A stretch of DNA of 64,000 bases from Candidatus Nanohalarchaeota archaeon (GTDB lineage Archaea; Nanohalarchaeota; Nanosalinia; Nanosalinales; Nanosalinaceae), in assembly GCA_022729235.1 (NCBI GenBank), contig JALDAJ010000001.1, forward strand, positions 576,442 to 640,441, in the 5' to 3' direction. The translations under genes were made by a program, and so were the position numbers. This document shows, piece by piece, positions 6,210 to 51,495 of this stretch (positions are counted from its first letter, which is position 1; each line of letters opens with the position of its first letter). The notes below the pieces were generated by a model. The model ran no database searches, was not told where the DNA came from, and worked only from the letters and a program-made list of their open reading frames with translations.

Positions 6210-6593
6210 TTACTTGAGCGGTACGTGCTGTGAGGACCGTGTTGCTCCGAGTCCTGGTGCACTGTGCTGTACTTCTTTCCGGGTTTTTGCGAACTCTCCC
6301 AGGTAGTGTCCCAGCATCTCTTTTTCGATGTCTACTGGGACGAAGTCCTGTCCGTTGTATACGTGGACTGTTTTACCTACCATTTCTGGTACTACTATCA
6401 TCGACCTGAAATGCGTCTTGACCGAGTCCTTATCTTCAAGGTCTTCAAGTATTTTTTTCTCCTCTCTTCTAAGTCCTCTTTCGAGTTTCCTTTTCCCTCT
6501 TGAGTTAAGAAGTTCTGCAAACTCGTCTAGAGTCATTTCCTGTAGTTCTTCGAGCTTGTGTCCTCTGAACTTCCATTCCTCGTCATTACTCAT
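6210..6593 (-). CDS. rps19: 30S ribosomal protein S19 (uS19)
   Basis: Small-subunit head protein contacting S13 and the A-site region. The 127 residues match archaeal S19: an N-terminal archaeal extension with FRGHKLEELQEM, then IVVPEMVGKTVHVYNGQDFVPV and the C-terminal LGEFAKTRKEVQHSAPGLGATRSS. Its ATG at 6593 lies inside one copy of a 10-bp direct repeat bounding a hairpin insertion (see 6586-6651). The present ribosome binding site GAGGTG, 8 bases before the ATG, is supplied by the inserted hairpin itself. Confidence 0.95.
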   Translation of the reverse strand: MSNDEEWKFRGHKLEELQEMTLDEFAELLNSRGKRKLERGLRREEKKILEDLEDKDSVKTHFRSMIVVPEMVGKTVHVYNGQDFVPVDIEKEMLGHYLGEFAKTRKEVQHSAPGLGATRSSQHVPLK

Positions 6594-6651
6594 CTCGAAA
6601 ACACCTCTGATGTTTTCTGGGTTCTTGAAACTCTACGAGTTTTACTCATCT
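6586..6651. repeat. Two-hairpin insertion bounded by a 10-bp direct repeat, L2/S19 junction
   Basis: The sequence TTACTCATCT occurs exactly at 6586-6595 and again at 6642-6651. Between the copies lie 46 bases with two hairpins: 6597-6617 (stem GAAAACA/TGTTTTC) and 6628-6642 (stem AAACTC/GAGTTT, loop TAC). One repeat copy holds the stop region of L2, the other the start of S19. Removing one copy plus the insert would restore an 8-base overlap of the L2 stop with the S19 start, with GGTGA just upstream as ribosome binding site. This is what a target-site duplication would look like. The first hairpin belongs to the TCGAAA...TTTTCTG family seen elsewhere in the window. Confidence 0.75.
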
Positions 6652-8413: not shown

Positions 8414-9385
8414 TCACCTGTCGATGTGTGTTATCTCTGGTTCTCCTGGGTTTTTGTCTTTCCTGAGTGCGGTTCTCAGCCTTACGAGTCTCTTTTCCGG
8501 TCCTGGAACAGAGCCCTTGATTATTATGTAGTTAGAATTGACTTCTCCATAGTTCTTGAACCCGCCTTCGCGCTGAACTTCTTCCGGGTCCTCTCCGTGG
8601 TCGATTATCCTCTTGTTGAGCTCTGTTCTATTGTTAAAGCCCTGTTGTCCGGGCAGTGGAACTCTCCATGAAAGTTTGTCAGGGTGCCACGGTCCGACGT
8701 TTCCCGCCTTTCTCCTCTTCTTCTGGGTCTTGTGACCGAGCTTCTTGATTCCGTAACGCTTGACAGGTCCTTCGACCCCTTTACCTTTGGTTACTGCGAC
8801 TACGTCCGAGTACTCTCCGGGCTCGAAAACGTCCGAGAACTCGATTTCCTTTCCAATCATTTCTTCCGCGTATTCCAGCTGTTCTTCTACGTCTCCGCCG
8901 AGCGCTACTTCAAAGTTCTCCGCTTTCTTCTTGGAGAGTCCTGCCTCCTGGGGCTGTGTGTGGACAAGTAGGCGGACCTCTGTAAGTTCGTCTTTGATTT
9001 CTTTAGCTGCTTCGAGGTTGTCCATATTTCCTTCTTTCGGAACGTCAGTTGCTCTCTGTAGCTCTTTTGCGGGCGAGTCTGTCCAGACCTCGGTGAAGAC
9101 CTGTTTGCCCGTGTTGATGTCTTCAGTGTAGAAGCGTGCACCGTAAACTCTGAGGGGCGGTGCTTCTAGTATCGTTACTGGTGTCGCGATTTCCTGACCC
9201 TGCGTGGCACCTTCTGTATCGTCTATCATCAGGACTCTGCTCATCCCTACCTTGTAGCCCGCGAATCCGAGCGGTTTCAGTTCACCTGTTTCTTCCCACG
9301 TATCTATCTCTGGGTAGATCCTTTCCGCCCTTACCTTGGGCTTGTATCCGAGTGATCCGCTTCTTGGTACGCTTGGGTCTGACAT
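8414..9385 (-). CDS. rpl3: 50S ribosomal protein L3 (uL3)
   Basis: First gene of the S10-type ribosomal operon. L3 reaches from the subunit surface to the peptidyl transferase centre. The 323 residues follow archaeal L3: PRSGSLGYKPKVRAERIYPE at the start, GFAGYKVGMSRVLMID, and the conserved core KRYGIKKLGHKTQKKRRKAG...VGPWHPDKLSWRVPLPGQQG. The start is ATG at 9385 with GAGGTGA about 10 bases upstream. The 5' leader of roughly 170 bases carries five hairpins (9399-9543). Confidence 0.96.
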   Translation of the reverse strand: MSDPSVPRSGSLGYKPKVRAERIYPEIDTWEETGELKPLGFAGYKVGMSRVLMIDDTEGATQGQEIATPVTILEAPPLRVYGARFYTEDINTGKQVFTEVWTDSPAKELQRATDVPKEGNMDNLEAAKEIKDELTEVRLLVHTQPQEAGLSKKKAENFEVALGGDVEEQLEYAEEMIGKEIEFSDVFEPGEYSDVVAVTKGKGVEGPVKRYGIKKLGHKTQKKRRKAGNVGPWHPDKLSWRVPLPGQQGFNNRTELNKRIIDHGEDPEEVQREGGFKNYGEVNSNYIIIKGSVPGPEKRLVRLRTALRKDKNPGEPEITHIDR

Positions 9386-9398
9386 AGTTGATTATTCA

Positions 9399-9543
9399 CC
9401 TCGAAACTGCCTGGCAGTTTCTGCGATTGCATGAACTCCTCAGGAGTTCAGCAAGTTCCATAGGCCTCGCAAGAGGCTTGTCCATCCGAGAACTCGAAAC
9501 TCCATATAGGAGTTTCTGCGACCCCGGAACCTTAGGCTCCGGG
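9399..9543. repeat. Chain of five short hairpins in the L3 operon leader
   Basis: Five perfect or near-perfect stem-loops lie end to end: 9401-9426 (stem GAAACTGCC/GGCAGTTTC with outer TCG/CGA), 9432-9450 (TGAACTCC/GGAGTTCA), 9462-9479 (GCCTC/GAGGC), 9493-9521 (AAACTCC/GGAGTTT with outer TCG/CTGCGA) and 9523-9543 (9-bp stem CCCGGAACC/GGCTCCGGG including one G-T pair). The first and fourth share the outer frame CTCGAAACT...AGTTTCTGCGA but have different inner stems. The chain lies between the operon TATA box (9577-9585) and the L3 ribosome binding site, so it should be transcribed as a structured leader. Role unknown: regulatory leader or inserted element. Confidence 0.7.
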
Positions 9544-9822: not shown

Positions 9823-12669
9823 CTAACCCTTTATGTTCGCGATGGGTGTTGTGCGCACGACTTTCTCTCCGATTCCGAGTTCGTCGGAGACCTTGATTAC
9901 CTCGTCCACGTCCTTGTAGGCGCCCGGCGCCTCCTCCGCGACGGTTGAGCCTGAGGCAGCCTTCACGTAGACTCCGTCGCGCTCTAGCTCCTGCATTAAG
10001 CGTTCGCCGTAGTAGTCCTGCTTCGCCTGCGTTCTTGACATGAGCCTTCCGGCGCCGTGTGCCGTAGAGCCGAACGATATCTCAAGCGATTCCTGTCCGC
10101 CAGACAGGATGTAGCTGGAGGTTCCCATAGTTCCTGGGATGAGGACGGGCTGTCCGACGTCTTGATACACGTCTGGCACCTCTTCACGCCCAGCAGGCAT
10201 CGCTCTAGTCGCGCCTTTACGGTGTACCAGAAGCTCCTTCTCCTCTCCGTCGACTTCATGCATCTCTTTCTTGGCGATGTTGTGGCACACGTCGTACACC
10301 AGGTCTACGGTTACGTCTTCAGCGATGAGGTTGAGCGCTTCCCTGACGGCCTCCGTCATGGCCTGCCTGTTTGCCCACGCGAAGTTGGCGGCGGCGTTCA
10401 TCGCGTTCCAGTAGTCCTGGCCGAGCCTATCTCCGAGTGGTGCGTAGATCAGCTCCTTATCAGGTATGGCATCAACTATTTCAGGGTAGTTCTCCTCGAA
10501 CTTTCTGAGGTACTCGGTGCAGGTCTGGTGGCCCAGTCCCCGTGACCCGGAGTGAATCATAACTACTATCTGGTCTTCTTCCAGGCCGTATGCCTCCGCC
10601 TTTTCATCGCTGTATACATCCTCGACTTTTTGAACCTCGAGGAAGTGGTTTCCGCTTCCAAGGGAGCCGAGCTGACCGACTCCTCTCTTTTTGGCTTTTT
10701 CTGGCACTTTGCTGGCATCTCCGTCCAGGCGACCGTTTTCCTCGCACCGTTCCAGGTCTTCCTCCTTTGCGTGTCCGTTCTCCAGCATCCATTCCATTCC
10801 TTTCTCCAGTATCTTTTCCAGGTCGTCGCGGTCGATTTCCAGGTATCCTCTACCACCAAGTCCGGTAGGTACCTTACTGAAGAGGACGTTTGCAAGTTGC
10901 TGTTCCTTGCCCTCTATGTCTTCGTAGGTCAGGCTGGTTCTGAGAACTCTTACTCCGCAGTTAGATACTATAAACTGGTTTGAAATGAAATTGTGTGCTT
11001 CATGTTTTACTCCGATGTCATAAACCTTTTCTTTTCCTGTTTTTTCTATGTGCTTAACTGTTGCTTTCACTGCTAGATTGTCTTTCACTTCTATATCTTC
11101 TGTGAATTCCTCGTAGCCGGGGAATTCTTTGGGCGGTCTTGAAGTGGTTTTCCTGCCCGAGTATATGCTTCTCTCTATAAACCTGTTGTTGATATCAAAT
11201 CTCTGCTTTAGTTCCTTAGGTGCTACATTATTTTCATAGAGTTCAACGCATTTCTCTGCGATTTTCTCTCTTCTCTCAATAGCTTTCTGCTTGGTCTTAA
11301 GGTACTGTGTTGCTTTAACTGCTTTCTTCTGTTTCTCAAGGTTGTATCTGTATCCGATTCTGGTGAAGAACCGGATCAGGTTTTCAGAGTCATTTTTTAT
11401 TCCGAGTCGGAACCTGATAACTTCTCCATTTTTGTTCTCGTTTGTTTCAAATTCTTCGATCTGGTTTGTTTCTATGTCCATCTGTTTCAGGACTCTCTTG
11501 ATTTCCTGCATAAACTTTCTTCCGGATTCCCTGGCTTCAATGTTCTTGTTCTGTGATACCTTGGGACAGTAAAGATTTTTGTCATGCTGCGCTTTAGGAG
11601 AACTCATTTCTGCACCGAAAAAGGCGGATAGATAAAGTGCGACCTGCCAGTCTGCAAGTTCTGAGAGTTGCTCTGGTGTTGTGAACTCTTCTTTCGTCTT
11701 AGTTCCTTCAGGAACTCCGATTTTGGTCAGTAGTTTCCTGAAGGCCTTCGATGTTGACTTGATACTGTATTCGGTTCTCTGGAATTCTCTGTCTTTTACC
11801 TCGTGTTTTCTTTCTCTTGAATAGATGGGGGAGGGCTTGAATCCGAGTTCTTCGATGTCTTTCTGTATCTGCTTCAGGTCTTTTTCCTTACCGTAGAAAG
11901 TAGTTTCTCCGTGATTGTTGAAAGACCCGTCACCTGTGTGGAATCCTGCCAGCTTCAGCAAGATGTTGAACTCTCTGTCAGTAGTTTTCAACGGCAGTAA
12001 ATCTCTTTTCTCCAGCGCCTGCACGAGCTGCTGGCTCTCGTCTTTGAAATCTTCTCTCGTGAGAACCTCTTTTTCTTTAGGGTCTTCGTCAGGAAGGCCC
12101 TTGAACGGTCGTAGGTATACTTGTGATCCTTCAGAGATCTTATCAAGTTTTTTCATACCTTCCGTTGTAAGGAAAGGATGGTCTCCTGTTGCCTTGATTT
12201 TCTCGCCAGTTTCTGTTTCGACTTTGTATACTTCTTTTTCTTCTTTTTCTGTGAATAACTGGATTCGTGACTCGACGGGTTTCTCGGCGGTTACAACCGC
12301 CTTTTCTTTATGGAAGTTATTCTTTAGTTTTTCAATCTCTGTAGATCTCCCGAACTCCAACAAAACCTCTGAATCGCCCGTTAAGCAGTTTATATCATAG
12401 CCGATTCCTCCGGGGCTTATAACTCCGTTTTCAGTGTCTACAGCTGCGACTCCTCCGATAGGGAAGCCGTAGCCCTGGTGGCCGTCTGGCATCACGATAG
12501 AGTATTTCTGGATGCCGGGCAGTGTCGCAACGTTTTTCACCTGTTCCAGGGTGTCGTCCTGTTTGATTTCTTCCAGCAGTTCTTCTGAGGCGTAAACTCT
12601 GCCAGGGACGTTCATTTTTCCCTCCTTCGGGATTTCGTAGACGTTCTCTGATACTTTGTTTAGTTCCAT
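9823..12669 (-). CDS. rtcB: tRNA-splicing ligase RtcB containing an intein
   Basis: Joins tRNA exon halves after intron removal, using Mn2+ and GTP (3'-phosphate/5'-OH ligation). The 948-residue frame is RtcB exteins of 94 + 378 residues around a 476-residue intein. The exteins carry MPDGHQGYGFPIGGVAA, GGIGYDIN / CGVRVLRT (the junction, next to a metal-binding Cys), GSGNHFLEVQ, VMIHSGSRGLGHQ and the C-terminal SFGSTAHGAGRLMSR with the GMP-accepting His. Extein total of 472 residues is normal for RtcB. Start ATG 12669 with GGAGA just upstream. Archease, its activator, is the next gene upstream (12763-13176). Confidence 0.97.
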   Translation of the reverse strand: MELNKVSENVYEIPKEGKMNVPGRVYASEELLEEIKQDDTLEQVKNVATLPGIQKYSIVMPDGHQGYGFPIGGVAAVDTENGVISPGGIGYDINCLTGDSEVLLEFGRSTEIEKLKNNFHKEKAVVTAEKPVESRIQLFTEKEEKEVYKVETETGEKIKATGDHPFLTTEGMKKLDKISEGSQVYLRPFKGLPDEDPKEKEVLTREDFKDESQQLVQALEKRDLLPLKTTDREFNILLKLAGFHTGDGSFNNHGETTFYGKEKDLKQIQKDIEELGFKPSPIYSRERKHEVKDREFQRTEYSIKSTSKAFRKLLTKIGVPEGTKTKEEFTTPEQLSELADWQVALYLSAFFGAEMSSPKAQHDKNLYCPKVSQNKNIEARESGRKFMQEIKRVLKQMDIETNQIEEFETNENKNGEVIRFRLGIKNDSENLIRFFTRIGYRYNLEKQKKAVKATQYLKTKQKAIERREKIAEKCVELYENNVAPKELKQRFDINNRFIERSIYSGRKTTSRPPKEFPGYEEFTEDIEVKDNLAVKATVKHIEKTGKEKVYDIGVKHEAHNFISNQFIVSNCGVRVLRTSLTYEDIEGKEQQLANVLFSKVPTGLGGRGYLEIDRDDLEKILEKGMEWMLENGHAKEEDLERCEENGRLDGDASKVPEKAKKRGVGQLGSLGSGNHFLEVQKVEDVYSDEKAEAYGLEEDQIVVMIHSGSRGLGHQTCTEYLRKFEENYPEIVDAIPDKELIYAPLGDRLGQDYWNAMNAAANFAWANRQAMTEAVREALNLIAEDVTVDLVYDVCHNIAKKEMHEVDGEEKELLVHRKGATRAMPAGREEVPDVYQDVGQPVLIPGTMGTSSYILSGGQESLEISFGSTAHGAGRLMSRTQAKQDYYGERLMQELERDGVYVKAASGSTVAEEAPGAYKDVDEVIKVSDELGIGEKVVRTTPIANIKG
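10960..12387 (-). mobile_element. Intein with LAGLIDADG homing endonuclease inside RtcB
   Basis: Residues 95-570 of the RtcB frame. It starts with the nucleophilic Cys (CLTGDSEVLL), has a block B Thr/His region (KATGDHPFLTTEG), two LAGLIDADG-type helices (LKLAGFHTGDGSF and LYLSAFFGAEMSS), and ends HNFISNQFIVSN followed by Cys+1 of the C-extein. All splicing residues (Cys1, block B His, penultimate Ser-terminal Asn, Cys+1) are present except that the residue before the last Asn is Ser, not His; HN of block F is intact. A DNA-binding helix-turn-helix-like piece lies near KELKQRFDINNRFIERS. The frame is intact, so splicing and possibly homing appear functional. Confidence 0.93.
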
Positions 12670-14026: not shown

Positions 14027-14057
14027 GAAGAATTATTAGTTGTAGAGTATGAAGAAT

Positions 14058-14482
14058 GTTCGCCGGGACTGTTCGAAGACTCTAGAGTTCCTGCATTGTG
14101 ACCGGTGTTGCCGGTCGACCACCGGAGGTGGTCACTATGATCGAACTTGGTAAAGTTCGCCGGGACTGGGTTCGAAAATCAAAAGATTTTCTGCAACTCG
14201 AAACCAGAACTTGGTTTCTCGGATTTGAACCCTGAACTTCTCGTGAGAGATGTGAGGATAATCAAATCCAGCAAGGCGTCAAAGACGCCGGGACTGGGAT
14301 TTGAACCCAGGAGGGCCGTCACAGCCCACTGGTTCTCAAGACCAGCGCGATCAGCCAGACTCCGCCATCCCGGCAGATTATAAATCTGCTGTGGATACAG
14401 AAACTCTTATGAGTTCCGAAGATTGTAAAATCTTCAGGACGTAGAAGATCCGTAGTGGATCTTCGAGTTTCGCATCCCGGCA
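14058..14482. repeat. Nested hairpin chains and duplicated tRNA ends around tRNA-Ser
   Basis: On the + strand, GTTCGCCGGGACTG occurs at 14058-14071 and 14155-14168. CGCCGGGACTGGG (tRNA-Ser 3' end) occurs at 14158-14170 and 14286-14298. GGATTTGAACCC (T arm) occurs at 14221-14232 and inside the tRNA. CATCCCGGCA (tRNA 5' end) occurs at 14366-14375 and 14473-14482. The spacers are chains of hairpins: 14100-14115, 14117-14133, 14142-14158, 14171-14195, 14199-14219 on one side; 14373-14387, 14400-14415, 14418-14435, 14443-14463 on the other. The copy at 14158-14232 is a tRNA end split by a two-hairpin insert. There is no protein gene between 14027 and 14559; this region holds only the tRNA and these repeats. 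Confidence 0.75.
14286..14374 (-). tRNA. tRNA-Ser (UGA)
   Basis: Class II tRNA of 89 bases. Acceptor stem GCCGGGA/TCCCGGC with discriminator G; anticodon loop CTTGAGA between stems CTGGT/ACCAG gives anticodon TGA; a long variable arm follows (GGGC/GCCC), then T arm CTGGG/CCCAG with loop TTCAAAT. CCA is not encoded. No intron. A 6-bp hairpin (GGCGTC/GACGCC) begins at its very 3' end. Both ends of the gene are partially duplicated in the flanks. Confidence 0.95.
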
Positions 14483-14559
14483 ATAAGTCTAGTAGAAGTT
14501 AGCTGCTGGAAGATTTAAATTAGAGGAGGTTTTTTAGCCCGGAAAAAGAAATCTGGCTT

Positions 14560-27505: not shown

Positions 27506-28963
27506 TTACTGGGCTTCAAGCCCTTCTTCCTCAAGTTTTGCTCTAAGTGAGTTTTTCTCCATATCGTTCATTCCCGTGGAAACGTTCGCGCTCATAGCGA
27601 GATACGTTCTCAGTCCGATGTTCATACCCTCCGGTGTCTTGATAGGGTCGATGCGTCCCCACTGTGTCGGGTGCAGGTCACGCGCCTCGAAGTGCTGTCT
27701 CTCGCTTGAAAGAGGTGAGACAACATTTCTGAGGTGTGAAAGAGTCTTGATCCTGTTGTCTCTGTCAAGTCTCTGGCATACTCCTGTTCTACCTCCTACC
27801 CAGTTACCTGTCGCCATAGCTCCCATAATCTGCTTGCTGAGGGTGTCTGAGACGATTGTGGACTGGAGAGATGGTAGGCGTCCACGTTTCGCGCTCTTCC
27901 TGAAGTTGTACTTCATGCGGGCGAGCAGACCCCATTTCCCGAGGAACACTGACCTGAACTGCATCTCCAGCAGTTCTCCCGCCAGGTTGAGCCTCTTGTT
28001 TGCGTAATGGTCCATGTCGTCTTCATTGATGTCGCCCTTTCCTAACGCGATGGTGTTTCGTATCATGTTTGCGAGGAACTCTGCCTTTTCCTCGCGGTAC
28101 TCAGGTTCCTGCCCTAGGTGTGGTAGCAGGTAGTCGTCTAGTATGCTTTCTACACGTTCTTCGACATCCGATGTGATTCCTGCCTGGTTCGCCACGTATT
28201 CGTAGGCTTCTTCCTGGTTGCTCGCATCTGTTTCGTACATGTTCAGGTAGACATCGCTCGCGTACTCTTCTCCAATAGCCTGTACGATTTCACGGTCAGT
28301 CTCGTACCCGAGTGCCCTGATAAGTGCGACTGCCGGTGTTTTCTTCACGTTAGCGAACGAGATGTTGACGATGTCGTCATCGCGTCTGAGAACGTGTCGC
28401 TGTACGTAGCCTGCCTGTTCGGAGTTGATACGGCAGACCTGTTCTCCGTCGTCATCCTGGTAGATGGGCTTGTTGTCTGCCATCTCTTCCATGCAGATAA
28501 GCGTTTTCTCGGAGCCGTTGACTATAAAGTATCCGCCAGGGTCTTCAGGGTCTTCTCCTGCATCTCTTAACTCCTCGTCGTCCATGTCTGAGGTCCAGCA
28601 CAGGTCGCCTCCGATCATTACAGGTATCTGACCTATCGTTACTTCCTCAGATTCCTGCTGTACTCCCTCGAAAATCGGTGTCATCGTGACCTTGATCTCT
28701 GAGGAATAAGTGAGGTCTCGCATCCGTGCTTCTTTCGGAAGCACCTTTCTTACGGACCCGTCTGCCTCGTTGATATGAGGTCTCTTGATATTTACGTCTA
28801 CTATCTTGATAACCAGTTCCTCTCCTTCCGGGAGGTCGGGTTTAATCTCGCCTACCTCGTTTAGAATAGCCTGTATCCTGTCTTCAACAAAACGGTTGTA
28901 GGAGTCGATCTGGTGTTTAACCATGTTCTGCTCGATGAGCTGGGAGAGGAATTCTTCTTTCAC
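27506..28963 (-). CDS. rpoB2: DNA-directed RNA polymerase subunit B''
   Basis: N-terminal half of the second-largest subunit, 485 residues. Recognised by NMVKHQIDSYNRFVEDRI at the start, PHINEADGSVRKVLPKEARMRDLTYS, GYFIVNGSEKTLICMEEMA, and the C-terminal SPLSSERQHFEARDLHPTQWGRIDP. The start is taken as GTG 28963 with GAGGTG 9 bases upstream. That GAGGTG lies in the 3' arm of a strong hairpin (28966-28986), so the site may be masked when the hairpin forms. Confidence 0.96.
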   Translation of the reverse strand: MKEEFLSQLIEQNMVKHQIDSYNRFVEDRIQAILNEVGEIKPDLPEGEELVIKIVDVNIKRPHINEADGSVRKVLPKEARMRDLTYSSEIKVTMTPIFEGVQQESEEVTIGQIPVMIGGDLCWTSDMDDEELRDAGEDPEDPGGYFIVNGSEKTLICMEEMADNKPIYQDDDGEQVCRINSEQAGYVQRHVLRRDDDIVNISFANVKKTPAVALIRALGYETDREIVQAIGEEYASDVYLNMYETDASNQEEAYEYVANQAGITSDVEERVESILDDYLLPHLGQEPEYREEKAEFLANMIRNTIALGKGDINEDDMDHYANKRLNLAGELLEMQFRSVFLGKWGLLARMKYNFRKSAKRGRLPSLQSTIVSDTLSKQIMGAMATGNWVGGRTGVCQRLDRDNRIKTLSHLRNVVSPLSSERQHFEARDLHPTQWGRIDPIKTPEGMNIGLRTYLAMSANVSTGMNDMEKNSLRAKLEEEGLEAQ

Positions 28964-29026
28964 TCGAAAACACCTCGGGTGTTTTCTGCGAGTCCAGAAT
29001 CTCTTTTAGATTCGTTCATGATTGAT
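28964..29026. repeat. Two-hairpin chain between rpoH and rpoB''
   Basis: The 63-base spacer holds two stem-loops: 28966-28986 (stem GAAAACACC/GGTGTTTTC, loop TCG, with outer ACTC/GAGT separated by a CTG-type bulge) and 28997-29013 (GAATCT/AGATTC). The first has the same TCGAAA...TTTCTGCGA frame as hairpins before L3, between pheS and pheT, and near tRNA-Ser. It contains the ribosome binding site of rpoB'' on its 3' arm. Confidence 0.65.
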
Positions 29027-49745: not shown

Positions 49746-49845
49746 TGACGAAAACAAGTTTTCTTAAGCTCGAAAACCGTAGGTTTTCTGCAGTCGAGAA
49801 GACTCATAGAGTCTTCGACCTCGCCAACCACGAGGTGGTAGCCGA
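49746..49845. repeat. Chain of four hairpins between pheS and pheT
   Basis: Stem-loops at 49750-49763 (GAAAAC/GTTTTC), 49772-49788 (GAAAACC/GGTTTTC, within the TCGAAA...TTTTCTGC frame), 49793-49819 (GTCGA..AGACTC/GAGTCTTCGAC with a small bulge) and 49827-49839 (ACCAC/GTGGT). The last one contains the pheT ribosome binding site GAGGTGG in its loop and 3' arm. Same class of hairpin chain as before L3 and near tRNA-Ser; here genes run on the opposite strand relative to the element frame. Confidence 0.65.
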
Positions 49846-51495
49846 GTGCCTCACGTAAAAATAGACAAGAGAGAGTTCGATGAACTCGTCGGTAGAGAGG
49901 TCGATGAAGAACTACTGTACGAGAAGGCTTCTTTCCTCGGCGTCCACTGGAACCATGAAGAGGGTCCAGAATGGGATGTAGAAGTCTATCCAAACCGACC
50001 TGATTTACTCAGTGTAGAAGGCTTGGCTCGTGCGTACAGAGGTTTCTTCGGCGTGAAGACTGGGTCGGAGAGTTACACTCCTTCAGGAGGCTCCATTGAG
50101 GTCGATATCGATTCTTCAGTCGAGGAAGTAAGACCTCACATCGCCTGCGCAGTCGTGAGGGATGTTGATGTATCAGAAAAGATACTGAACGGCTGGATAC
50201 AGCTACAGGAGAAGCTCCACGAGTCGATGGGGCGGAAGAGGGATAAACTGGCGATAGGTCTTCACGACCTTGGACAGGTTGAGCCACCGTTCACCTACAG
50301 GGCGGTGGAGCCGGATAGAGTATCATTCACTCCTCTCGAACATGACAGGGAGATGCAGTTAGGGGAGATACTGGATGAGCACGAGAAGGGGCAGGAATAC
50401 GCGTGGATACTCGAAGACGAGGACAGATACCCGGTGATAGAAGATTCGGAAGGAAGAGTTATCTCTTTCCCTCCTATAATCAACAACCAGCTGACCGAGG
50501 TAACAGCCGGGACAAGCGACATATTCATCGACGTGACTGGAAAGGATCGCAGGACAGTACTTAAAGTACTAAACATCCTCACCACGGCTCTCTCCGAGAG
50601 GGGAGGTTACGTGGAAACGGTACTGGTCAACGGAGAGGAGATGCCTGACCTGGAACCTGATGAATGGAAACTAGACCCGGAATATTTCCGGGACATCTCT
50701 GGTCTCGAACTTGATGACAGTCAAATCATCGAACGGCTGGAGAAGATGAAGTTCGGGGCGGAGAAGAAAAACGATGCTATAGAAGTCAGGGTCCCGGCTT
50801 ACAGGAACGACGTGATGCACCAGTACGACCTGATAGAGGACGTGGTGATCGCACACGGCTACGACAATATAGAACCGGAGATACCTGAGATCGACCAGGT
50901 CGCAGAGGAAAGACCTGTCGAGGATTACACGCGTATAATGAGAGATATACTACAGGGTACGGGGGCGCTGGAAACTCATACCTATGTGCTCTCCAACCGC
51001 GAGAAACTGTTCCACAGGATGAACCTTGAGGGGGAAGAGATCGCAGAGATGTCGAATGCGTTGACAGAGGACTACACCGCGGTAAGAAACTGGCTCCTTC
51101 CCTCCTTGATGAATGTGCTTCGGAGGAACAGGCACCGATCCTACCCGCAGAAGTTCTTCGAGGTCGCCGATGTCTCGGTGCTGGACGACTCTGCAACAGG
51201 CGCGTCCAACAGGAGAAAGCTGGCGTACGTCCACTCAGGCAACAGCGCGGATTATACAGATGTCCGGCAGGTACTCCAGGTGCTGGAACGTGATCTTGGA
51301 GTTGAGTTCCGTATAGATTCTGGATCAGGAAACTGCTTCGACCCTGAACGCTCCGGCGACATCTACCTGGGAGAGGAAAAGATAGGTATTATAGGTGAGT
51401 TCTCCAGCAGTGTCATAGAGAACTGGGACCTGGACCGCGGCGTTGCGGGCTTCGAGCTGGACGTGGAGAAATTGCTGGAGATCATCAGGAACTAG
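49846..51495 (+). CDS. pheT: Phenylalanyl-tRNA synthetase beta subunit
   Basis: Beta chain of PheRS with editing (B3/B4) activity, 549 residues, archaeal length. Start GTG 49846 with GAGGTGG about 7 bases upstream. Recognised by WDVEVYPNRPDLLSVEGLAR, the B3/B4 part IGLHDLGQVEPPFTYRAVEP and FPPIINNQLTEVTAGTSDIFIDVTG, B5 PAYRNDVMHQYDLIEDVVIAHGYD-type stretch (VPAYRNDVMHQYDLIEDV) and the C-terminal PQKFFEVADVSVLD. The stop overlaps the convergent pspC gene by four bases. Confidence 0.96.
   Translation: MPHVKIDKREFDELVGREVDEELLYEKASFLGVHWNHEEGPEWDVEVYPNRPDLLSVEGLARAYRGFFGVKTGSESYTPSGGSIEVDIDSSVEEVRPHIACAVVRDVDVSEKILNGWIQLQEKLHESMGRKRDKLAIGLHDLGQVEPPFTYRAVEPDRVSFTPLEHDREMQLGEILDEHEKGQEYAWILEDEDRYPVIEDSEGRVISFPPIINNQLTEVTAGTSDIFIDVTGKDRRTVLKVLNILTTALSERGGYVETVLVNGEEMPDLEPDEWKLDPEYFRDISGLELDDSQIIERLEKMKFGAEKKNDAIEVRVPAYRNDVMHQYDLIEDVVIAHGYDNIEPEIPEIDQVAEERPVEDYTRIMRDILQGTGALETHTYVLSNREKLFHRMNLEGEEIAEMSNALTEDYTAVRNWLLPSLMNVLRRNRHRSYPQKFFEVADVSVLDDSATGASNRRKLAYVHSGNSADYTDVRQVLQVLERDLGVEFRIDSGSGNCFDPERSGDIYLGEEKIGIIGEFSSSVIENWDLDRGVAGFELDVEKLLEIIRN

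Follow-up and report, generated by a model that had tools for sequence, protein, structure and literature searches.

Double-hairpin elements nested around a tRNA-Ser gene of a nanohaloarchaeon

The repeated ends of a serine tRNA gene in a nanohaloarchaeal genome mark places where short double-hairpin DNA elements (DHEs) appear to have inserted one into another. Elements of the same family, with the consensus GAAAn..nTTTC-TGnGAnnnCA-GAAAn..nTTTC and a length of ~45-57 bp, lie next to tRNA genes and exactly at the start codons of ribosomal-protein genes across this group of archaea, and seem not to have been described. DHEs were found in 15 of 28 genomes of the phylum, with a patchy distribution. 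Successive insertion with target duplication is supported for the tRNA-Ser locus, although the units on the 3' side of the tRNA are less clear and no mobilising enzyme has been identified.

Results

Ends of tRNA-Ser(UGA) are repeated on both sides of the gene

The window, a stretch of 64,000 nucleotides, covers positions 576442-640441 of the 1,027,595-bp, single-contig genome of a Candidatus Nanohalarchaeota archaeon (GCA_022729235.1, JALDAJ010000001.1; here G000, other G-numbers denoting other genomes and L-numbers individual sequence stretches). ARAGORN placed an intact tRNA-Ser(UGA) on the minus strand at 14284-14375 and Rfam at 14286-14374 (53.3 bits). The 3' end of this tRNA (CGCCGGGACTGGG on the plus strand) is found at 14286-14298, which is the tRNA itself, and again at 14158-14170 (identical) and 14061-14073 (85%); the outer two copies share 16 of 17 bp at 14055-14071 and 14152-14168, so that the repeat runs past the tRNA into its 3' flank. 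Part of the T-arm, CTCGGATTTGAACCC, recurs at 14218-14232 (against 14294-14308) and is separated from its acceptor part by a 50-bp two-hairpin insert at 14171-14220. The 5' end, CATCCCGGCA, is present at 14366-14375 and at 14473-14482 (10/10). None of 200 dinucleotide shuffles of the flanks reached either match. The initial annotation had reported that the tRNA 3' end is present three times and the 5' end twice, separated by hairpins; this observation is confirmed, with the refinements that one of the three 3' ends is the functional tRNA and that the phenomenon is genome-wide. The features of the locus, and the other DHEs of the window, are as follows; bit scores refer to a covariance model, R1, described below.

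14286-14375, minus: intact tRNA-Ser(UGA), whose 3' acceptor strand and 5' strand are the duplicated targets.
14473-14482, minus: duplicated tRNA 5' end (TGCCGGGATG), the target duplication of the outer 5'-side DHE; p<0.005 against shuffles.
14376-14472, plus: outer 5'-side DHE (hairpin 1 at 14373-14389; spacer; hairpin 2 beginning GAAACTC at 14400-14406 and ending GAGTTTC at 14465-14471), interrupted by a second element; R1 match 14370-14420, 33.3 bits; fold z -6.8 for 14366-14490.
14416-14464, minus: second DHE, nested in hairpin 2 of the outer one, with a 5-bp target duplication GAGTT at 14411-14415 and 14465-14469; R1 match 14415-14467, 29.4 bits.
14221-14285, minus: 3'-side unit, with a hairpin abutting the tRNA end (GGCGTC..GACGCC) and an inverted T-arm hairpin GGATTTGA...TCAAATCC; related units in L006 and L054.
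14171-14220, minus: DHE splitting the T-arm copy from the acceptor copy; R1 match 14171-14221, 37.9 bits; same position occupied in L006.
14158-14170, minus: second copy of the tRNA 3' end, 13/13 identical to 14286-14298.
14072-14157, minus: outer 3'-side hairpin insert (AAGTTCG/CGAACTT, GACCACC/GGTGGTC and GACCGG/CCGGTC hairpins).
14055-14071, minus: outermost copy of the tRNA 3' end plus original 3' flank (CAGTCCCGGCGAACATT).
6594-6646, minus: start-site DHE before the uS19 gene (6210-6593, minus); 8-9 bp target repeat (T)ACTCATCT; mini-ORF MSKTRRVSRTQKTSEVFSR, then stop; 43.6 bits.
9400-9453, minus: DHE in the leader of the uL3 gene (8414-9385, minus; Pfam Ribosomal_L3); 47.8 bits.
9493-9543, minus: weaker DHE in the same uL3 leader; 24.4 bits, E 0.01.
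28963-29016, minus: start-site DHE before the RNA polymerase Rpb2 gene (27506-28963, minus), with Shine-Dalgarno hairpin and mini-ORF MNESKRDSGLAENTRGVFE, then stop; 56.6 bits; RNA fold z -3.65.
49769-49818, plus: DHE upstream of the PheRS beta gene (49846-51495, assigned by Pfam); 43.5 bits.

On the 5' side, when the inner DHE is left out of consideration, the outer one has the form seen at the orthologous site in G012 and G016. On the 3' side, the unit abutting the tRNA is followed by a DHE and the acceptor copy, then by a further hairpin insert and finally by the original 3' end with its flank. In tRNA-Ser(CGA), the 3'-side T-arm copy is split by a DHE at the same position. The 3'-side repeats are longer (17 bp here and 35 bp in G001) and the inverted T-arm is unexplained. 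The whole transcript folds far better than shuffles (z -9.0), with nested acceptor-like pairing whose importance in the cell is not known. Read in the sense of the acceptor 3' strand, the 5'-side element has the same orientation as the 3'-side ones; hairpin 1 starts on the last bases of ...CCGGC and the target copy follows hairpin 2. The acceptor stem is an inverted repeat, so one sequence on opposite strands can explain both ends, although this is inferred from the sequences. The window also carries an RtcB RNA ligase gene of 948 aa (9823-12669, minus) containing an intein (Intein_splicing and a weak LAGLIDADG match).

Copies of tRNA ends occur throughout the genome

In order to determine whether the repeats are particular to this locus, every tRNA end was scored against its own flank and against the flanks of the other tRNAs. 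A 3'-end copy of at least 12/14 was found downstream in 9 of 32 tRNAs of this genome, whereas such matches occurred in 0.7% of cross-tRNA pairs; Gly, Glu, Lys, Phe, Cys, Pro, Trp and Ser genes are among the cases. Leu (two), Tyr, Thr and Ser genes have 5'-end copies upstream, and about a third of the tRNA genes carry copies of their own ends; the copies match the local tRNA. Genome-wide statements here rest on searches and on individual stretches of sequence. Two complete relatives showed the same to a lesser degree (own-end copies were found in G000, G005 and G009); the single strong hits in a distant archaeon, G036, are neighbouring tRNA genes, and none was left once these were set aside. 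The two tRNA-Leu genes, tRNA-Leu(UAG) in L012 and tRNA-Leu(GAG) in L034, both carry a 5'-end copy (12/12) and nearly the same ~50-bp insert, of a form different from the DHE. The intron of a tRNA-Met in L009 (elongator type, judged by the intron) is 203 nt long with chained hairpins, against 113 nt in G009, and possibly contains hairpin elements.

The unit downstream of tRNA-Ser(UGA) is 96% identical over 156 bp to that beside tRNA-Ser(GGA) (G000, 227753-227908), though the tRNA bodies differ, and its core was also found beside tRNA-Phe in another family of the phylum.

Related genomes contain empty and occupied sites

Identical structure in all relatives, with no empty site, had been named at the outset as the outcome that would overturn an insertion origin; the tRNA-Ser site was compared across relatives, and this was not what was found. 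G003 and G012 belong to one genus and are ~91% identical around this locus. At tRNA-Ser(UGA), G003 reads ...GGTTCG/TGCCGGAGTGACT, whereas G012 reads ...AGTTCG/TGCCGGAG/ATCGAAAACTCATAAGAGTTTTCTCGATCAGAAGCAAATCCAAGATT/TGCCGGAG/TGACT, that is, an exact 47-bp DHE and an 8-bp repeat. The same site is occupied in G002, G009 and G016, and empty in G008, G015 and others. Gains of ~300-400 bp between G003 and G012 were gene differences, not hairpins.

When ~122 kb of G008 and G015 were aligned, 9 insertions of 33-57 bp were seen in G015 and one in G008, nearly all of them double or single hairpins, between genes or in RNA genes. One lies inside the RNase P RNA gene; another, at 6948-6989 of L185 (G015), lies just upstream of 16S rRNA, in the presumed processing stem, and is missing in G008. 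A DHE also lies inside a 668-aa ORF in G008 (L175, 12716-12764) and in G018 (L195), apparently in frame, but is absent at that place in G015.

The elements form a family with a patchy distribution

Parsed copies have the form (CTC)GAAAnnn-loop-nnnTTTC-TGnGAnnnCA-GAAAnnn-loop-nnnTTTC-(GA), with two perfect hairpins with GAAA...TTTC bases joined by a ~10-nt spacer. The covariance model R1 returned 8 matches in the window, none in 89 kb of G036, and matches in 16 of 28 genomes of the phylum at E 0.01 (15 at E 0.001). The model was built from copies chosen for perfect hairpins, so the covariation observed is partly by construction; match counts include both strands of one element, and the inspected copies are the higher-scoring ones. 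Distribution is patchy within genera, with 25 matches in G015 and 3 in G008, and 10 in G001 and 0 in G017 and G011. Of 32 other archaea, only G046 had matches, at 13 places (for example L251-L254); these belong to a separate family of near-identical double hairpins, GCAAAAC..GTTTTGC-GAGGCCC-GCAAAATC..GATTTTGC, flanked by CCTT and TTGGG. Rfam found only tRNAs in the window, even at E up to 5, arguing against a known RNA family, and pattern scans of IMG/VR for viral carriers gave no match. A BHB-intron or kink-turn reading of the hairpin bulge was tried by eye and did not fit.

To examine target duplication, the left and right flanks of each copy were compared with permuted partners. Perfect flanking repeats of 6-10 bp exceeded expectation, with p=0.0005 for copies away from start codons and p=0.014 for those at start codons; examples are TACTCATCT at window position 6594, and CATTGTCC, GTGGTGTA, AAGTCATT and CGGACGCCGC elsewhere. 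Only about a fifth of copies have a repeat of 6 bp or more, so most repeats are short, absent or decayed. A minority of copies have perfect repeats of 7-10 bp, while the best-defined sites have 5 and 8 bp and the 3' side has longer ones, observations which do not decide whether the duplication has the fixed length expected of a MITE.

DHEs at start codons carry a Shine-Dalgarno hairpin and a mini-ORF

Of 79 DHEs inspected in the phylum, 35 sit exactly at the start of a gene. In gene sense, each of these has an upstream ATG, hairpin 2, spacer and hairpin 1; hairpin 1 carries a Shine-Dalgarno-like motif in 34 of 35, usually GGTG 7-10 nt before the start codon. In 32 of 35, a mini-ORF of 16-21 codons ends on the start codon (offsets +1, -2 or -3 in 28). 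All three reading frames of the same DNA are used and the amino acids change with paired bases, because of which a conserved leader peptide was rejected. Of 22 such genes tested, 19 encode ribosomal proteins, translation GTPases or an aminoacyl-tRNA synthetase; the others encode RNA polymerase Rpb2, a proteasome subunit and a dehydrogenase. Copies not at start codons are often next to tRNAs (12 of 29 examined).

No candidate mobilising enzyme was identified

A search of this genome for Cas1 (PF01867) gave no match, and Y1 transposases (PF01797) were absent from all 27 genomes searched, although control genomes were positive. Two tyrosine recombinase genes are present, but nothing ties them to DHEs. 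One of these, an ORF of 461-472 aa (L068, 1249-2634; G000, near 862,700), has its match about 0.7 kb from tRNA-Thr(GGT) and, read by eye, a RadC-like ORF beside it; it is a possible integrated element.

Discussion

Together these data are best explained by a stack of independent insertions of a short, non-coding DHE into the two ends of a tRNA-Ser gene, a reading to which we assign a probability of approximately 0.68. In this view, insertion copies a few bases of the target to both sides (most often 7-10 bp, range 3-15 on the 5' side), and a tRNA end, or a start codon, is therefore rebuilt beside the element while the gene stays intact. The repeats, the empty and occupied sites in related species, the DHE nested inside a DHE with its own target duplication and the patchy distribution were observed directly; that the reaction is a staggered-cut insertion, carried out by an as yet unidentified enzyme acting in trans and probably favouring strongly transcribed translation genes, is our inference. 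Translational coupling at start codons is likewise inferred: ribosomes reading the mini-ORF would open the hairpin which holds the Shine-Dalgarno sequence of the next gene. Weighing against this explanation, copies within a genome are rarely alike in stem sequence (mostly under 87%), unlike a recently spreading transposon, structure rather than sequence being kept; several start-site DHEs lie at the same gene in several genera, so that many are inherited and perhaps useful; and some empty sites may be precise losses of a hairpin between short repeats rather than sites never hit. The nested copies, the tRNA-end repeats, the scattered new sites in G015 and the patchiness argue that gains occur too.

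The initial annotation had proposed successive insertions, each with target duplication, and had argued from the 5'-side copy for a mechanism other than that of classical tRNA-site integrases. This interpretation is partly supported: the nested insertions are supported by the empty site in a related species and by the 5-bp duplication of the nested element, and the 5'-side copy is indeed not explained by a classical tRNA integrase. That the inserts belong to a genome-wide and phylum-wide family, also present at start codons of translation genes, was not foreseen. The larger 3'-side units have 12-35 bp repeats and an inverted T-arm, which a simple 8-bp insertion does not explain; whether they arise by the same reaction was not settled. 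The other possibility raised against it, that the copies are tRNA pseudogenes, was rejected because the tRNA is complete and the copies are of ends only.

An alternative, which we consider unlikely, is that DHEs are not mobile but constitute an ancient family of RNA control elements shared by genes of the translation machinery, with copies around tRNAs and start codons kept by selection and absences produced by hairpin-promoted slippage between short repeats. The predominance of translation genes among start-site genes, the nearly constant Shine-Dalgarno and mini-ORF architecture, and the occupancy of the same gene in several genera (uS3 in G008, G012, G015 and G018; S24e in G003, G005, G015 and G016) favor such a regulon. 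However, the nested DHE with a target repeat, DHEs inside tRNA-end copies and in an RNase P RNA loop, target repeats made of tRNA ends, and an opposite orientation at uL24 in G000 all point to the arrival of new copies, and many genomes of the phylum have none.

Less likely still, replication slippage or template switching at hairpins could have made tandem partial duplications of the tRNA ends without movement between loci; the 3'-side units do carry an inverted copy of the local T-arm, the hairpin next to the tRNA uses the tRNA's own last bases, and stems vary while staying perfectly paired, but related inserts with the same core occur beside different tRNAs and genes, and the 47-57 bp inserts at start codons are not copies of their surroundings. 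Remnants of a tyrosine integrase, with the repeats as attL/attR, would fit the recombinase gene near tRNA-Thr(GGT) and the 3'-side repeats that run past the tRNA end, but are very unlikely given the 5'-end copies at Ser, Leu and Tyr, the many different tRNAs each with its own local copy, the elements at start codons and in RNase P RNA, and the lack of an integrase gene inside any unit.

A further reading, which the data allow but which we hold only tentatively, is that nanohaloarchaea carry a mobile element that inserts into genes of the translation machinery (tRNA ends, rRNA leader, RNase P RNA, start codons of ribosomal-protein genes), duplicates the target so that the gene survives, and at start codons supplies its own Shine-Dalgarno hairpin plus a mini-ORF in any reading frame; it would be a portable translational coupler that can be gained and lost and may tune the whole translation apparatus together. 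The locus is an entry point to an apparently undescribed family of tiny insertion elements in a symbiotic archaeal phylum. These concentrate on the most conserved and most expressed genes, where insertions are normally fatal, and seem built to be tolerated there, since target duplication restores tRNA ends and start codons and a built-in ribosome-binding hairpin keeps the next gene translated. They raise the questions of how small palindromic elements move without a known transposase and how gene-expression signals arise from insertions.

Several known systems were compared with the element. Split, permuted or intron-containing tRNAs are excluded, as the tRNA-Ser is complete and intron-less in the DNA. 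tRNA-site tyrosine integrases of archaeal viruses and plasmids likewise leave direct repeats of the tRNA 3' end, but insertion here is not confined to 3' ends with one conserved core; 5' ends, start codons and many different tRNAs are used, each repeat matching the local gene. Casposons (PMC6614799, PMC6977970, PMC10359463) duplicate their target and have tRNA 3' ends as known targets, but depend on Cas1, which is absent from this genome, whereas the inserts are ~50 bp without genes and 5' ends and start codons are also used. With regard to MITEs, the element ends share only GAAA..TTTC; no parent transposon was found, nor was one sought systematically, and terminal inverted repeats shared with a full-length transposon were not tested for.

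In behaviour, the element resembles the small palindromic repeats of bacteria. Rickettsia palindromic elements, REP/BIME, ERIC and similar small bacterial repeats are also short, palindromic, non-autonomous and present in many copies, mostly between genes and sometimes inside genes. REP/BIME depend on a Y1 transposase, which is absent from the 27 genomes searched. The single apparent in-frame case, in the 668-aa ORF, is too little to say whether DHEs share the in-frame insertion into protein genes of the Rickettsia elements. None of these repeats is described as sitting at start codons of translation genes with its own Shine-Dalgarno sequence, and literature searches for such elements in Nanohaloarchaeota found nothing relevant; the link to translation genes and the built-in Shine-Dalgarno/mini-ORF form appear new. 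In form, the closest counterparts are the double-hairpin elements of fungal mitochondrial DNA (Allomyces, Schizosaccharomyces; PMC10085805 and references there), which also consist of two adjacent hairpins in a compact unit of tens of bp, lie between genes and inside RNA genes, and have been proposed to be mobile with no known enzyme. The fission yeast elements were found by GC above 75%, whereas the full-length matches here have a GC content of 0.29-0.57; the archaeal elements show target repeats, carry the Shine-Dalgarno/mini-ORF form at start codons, and work like a DHE without being assigned to the same family.
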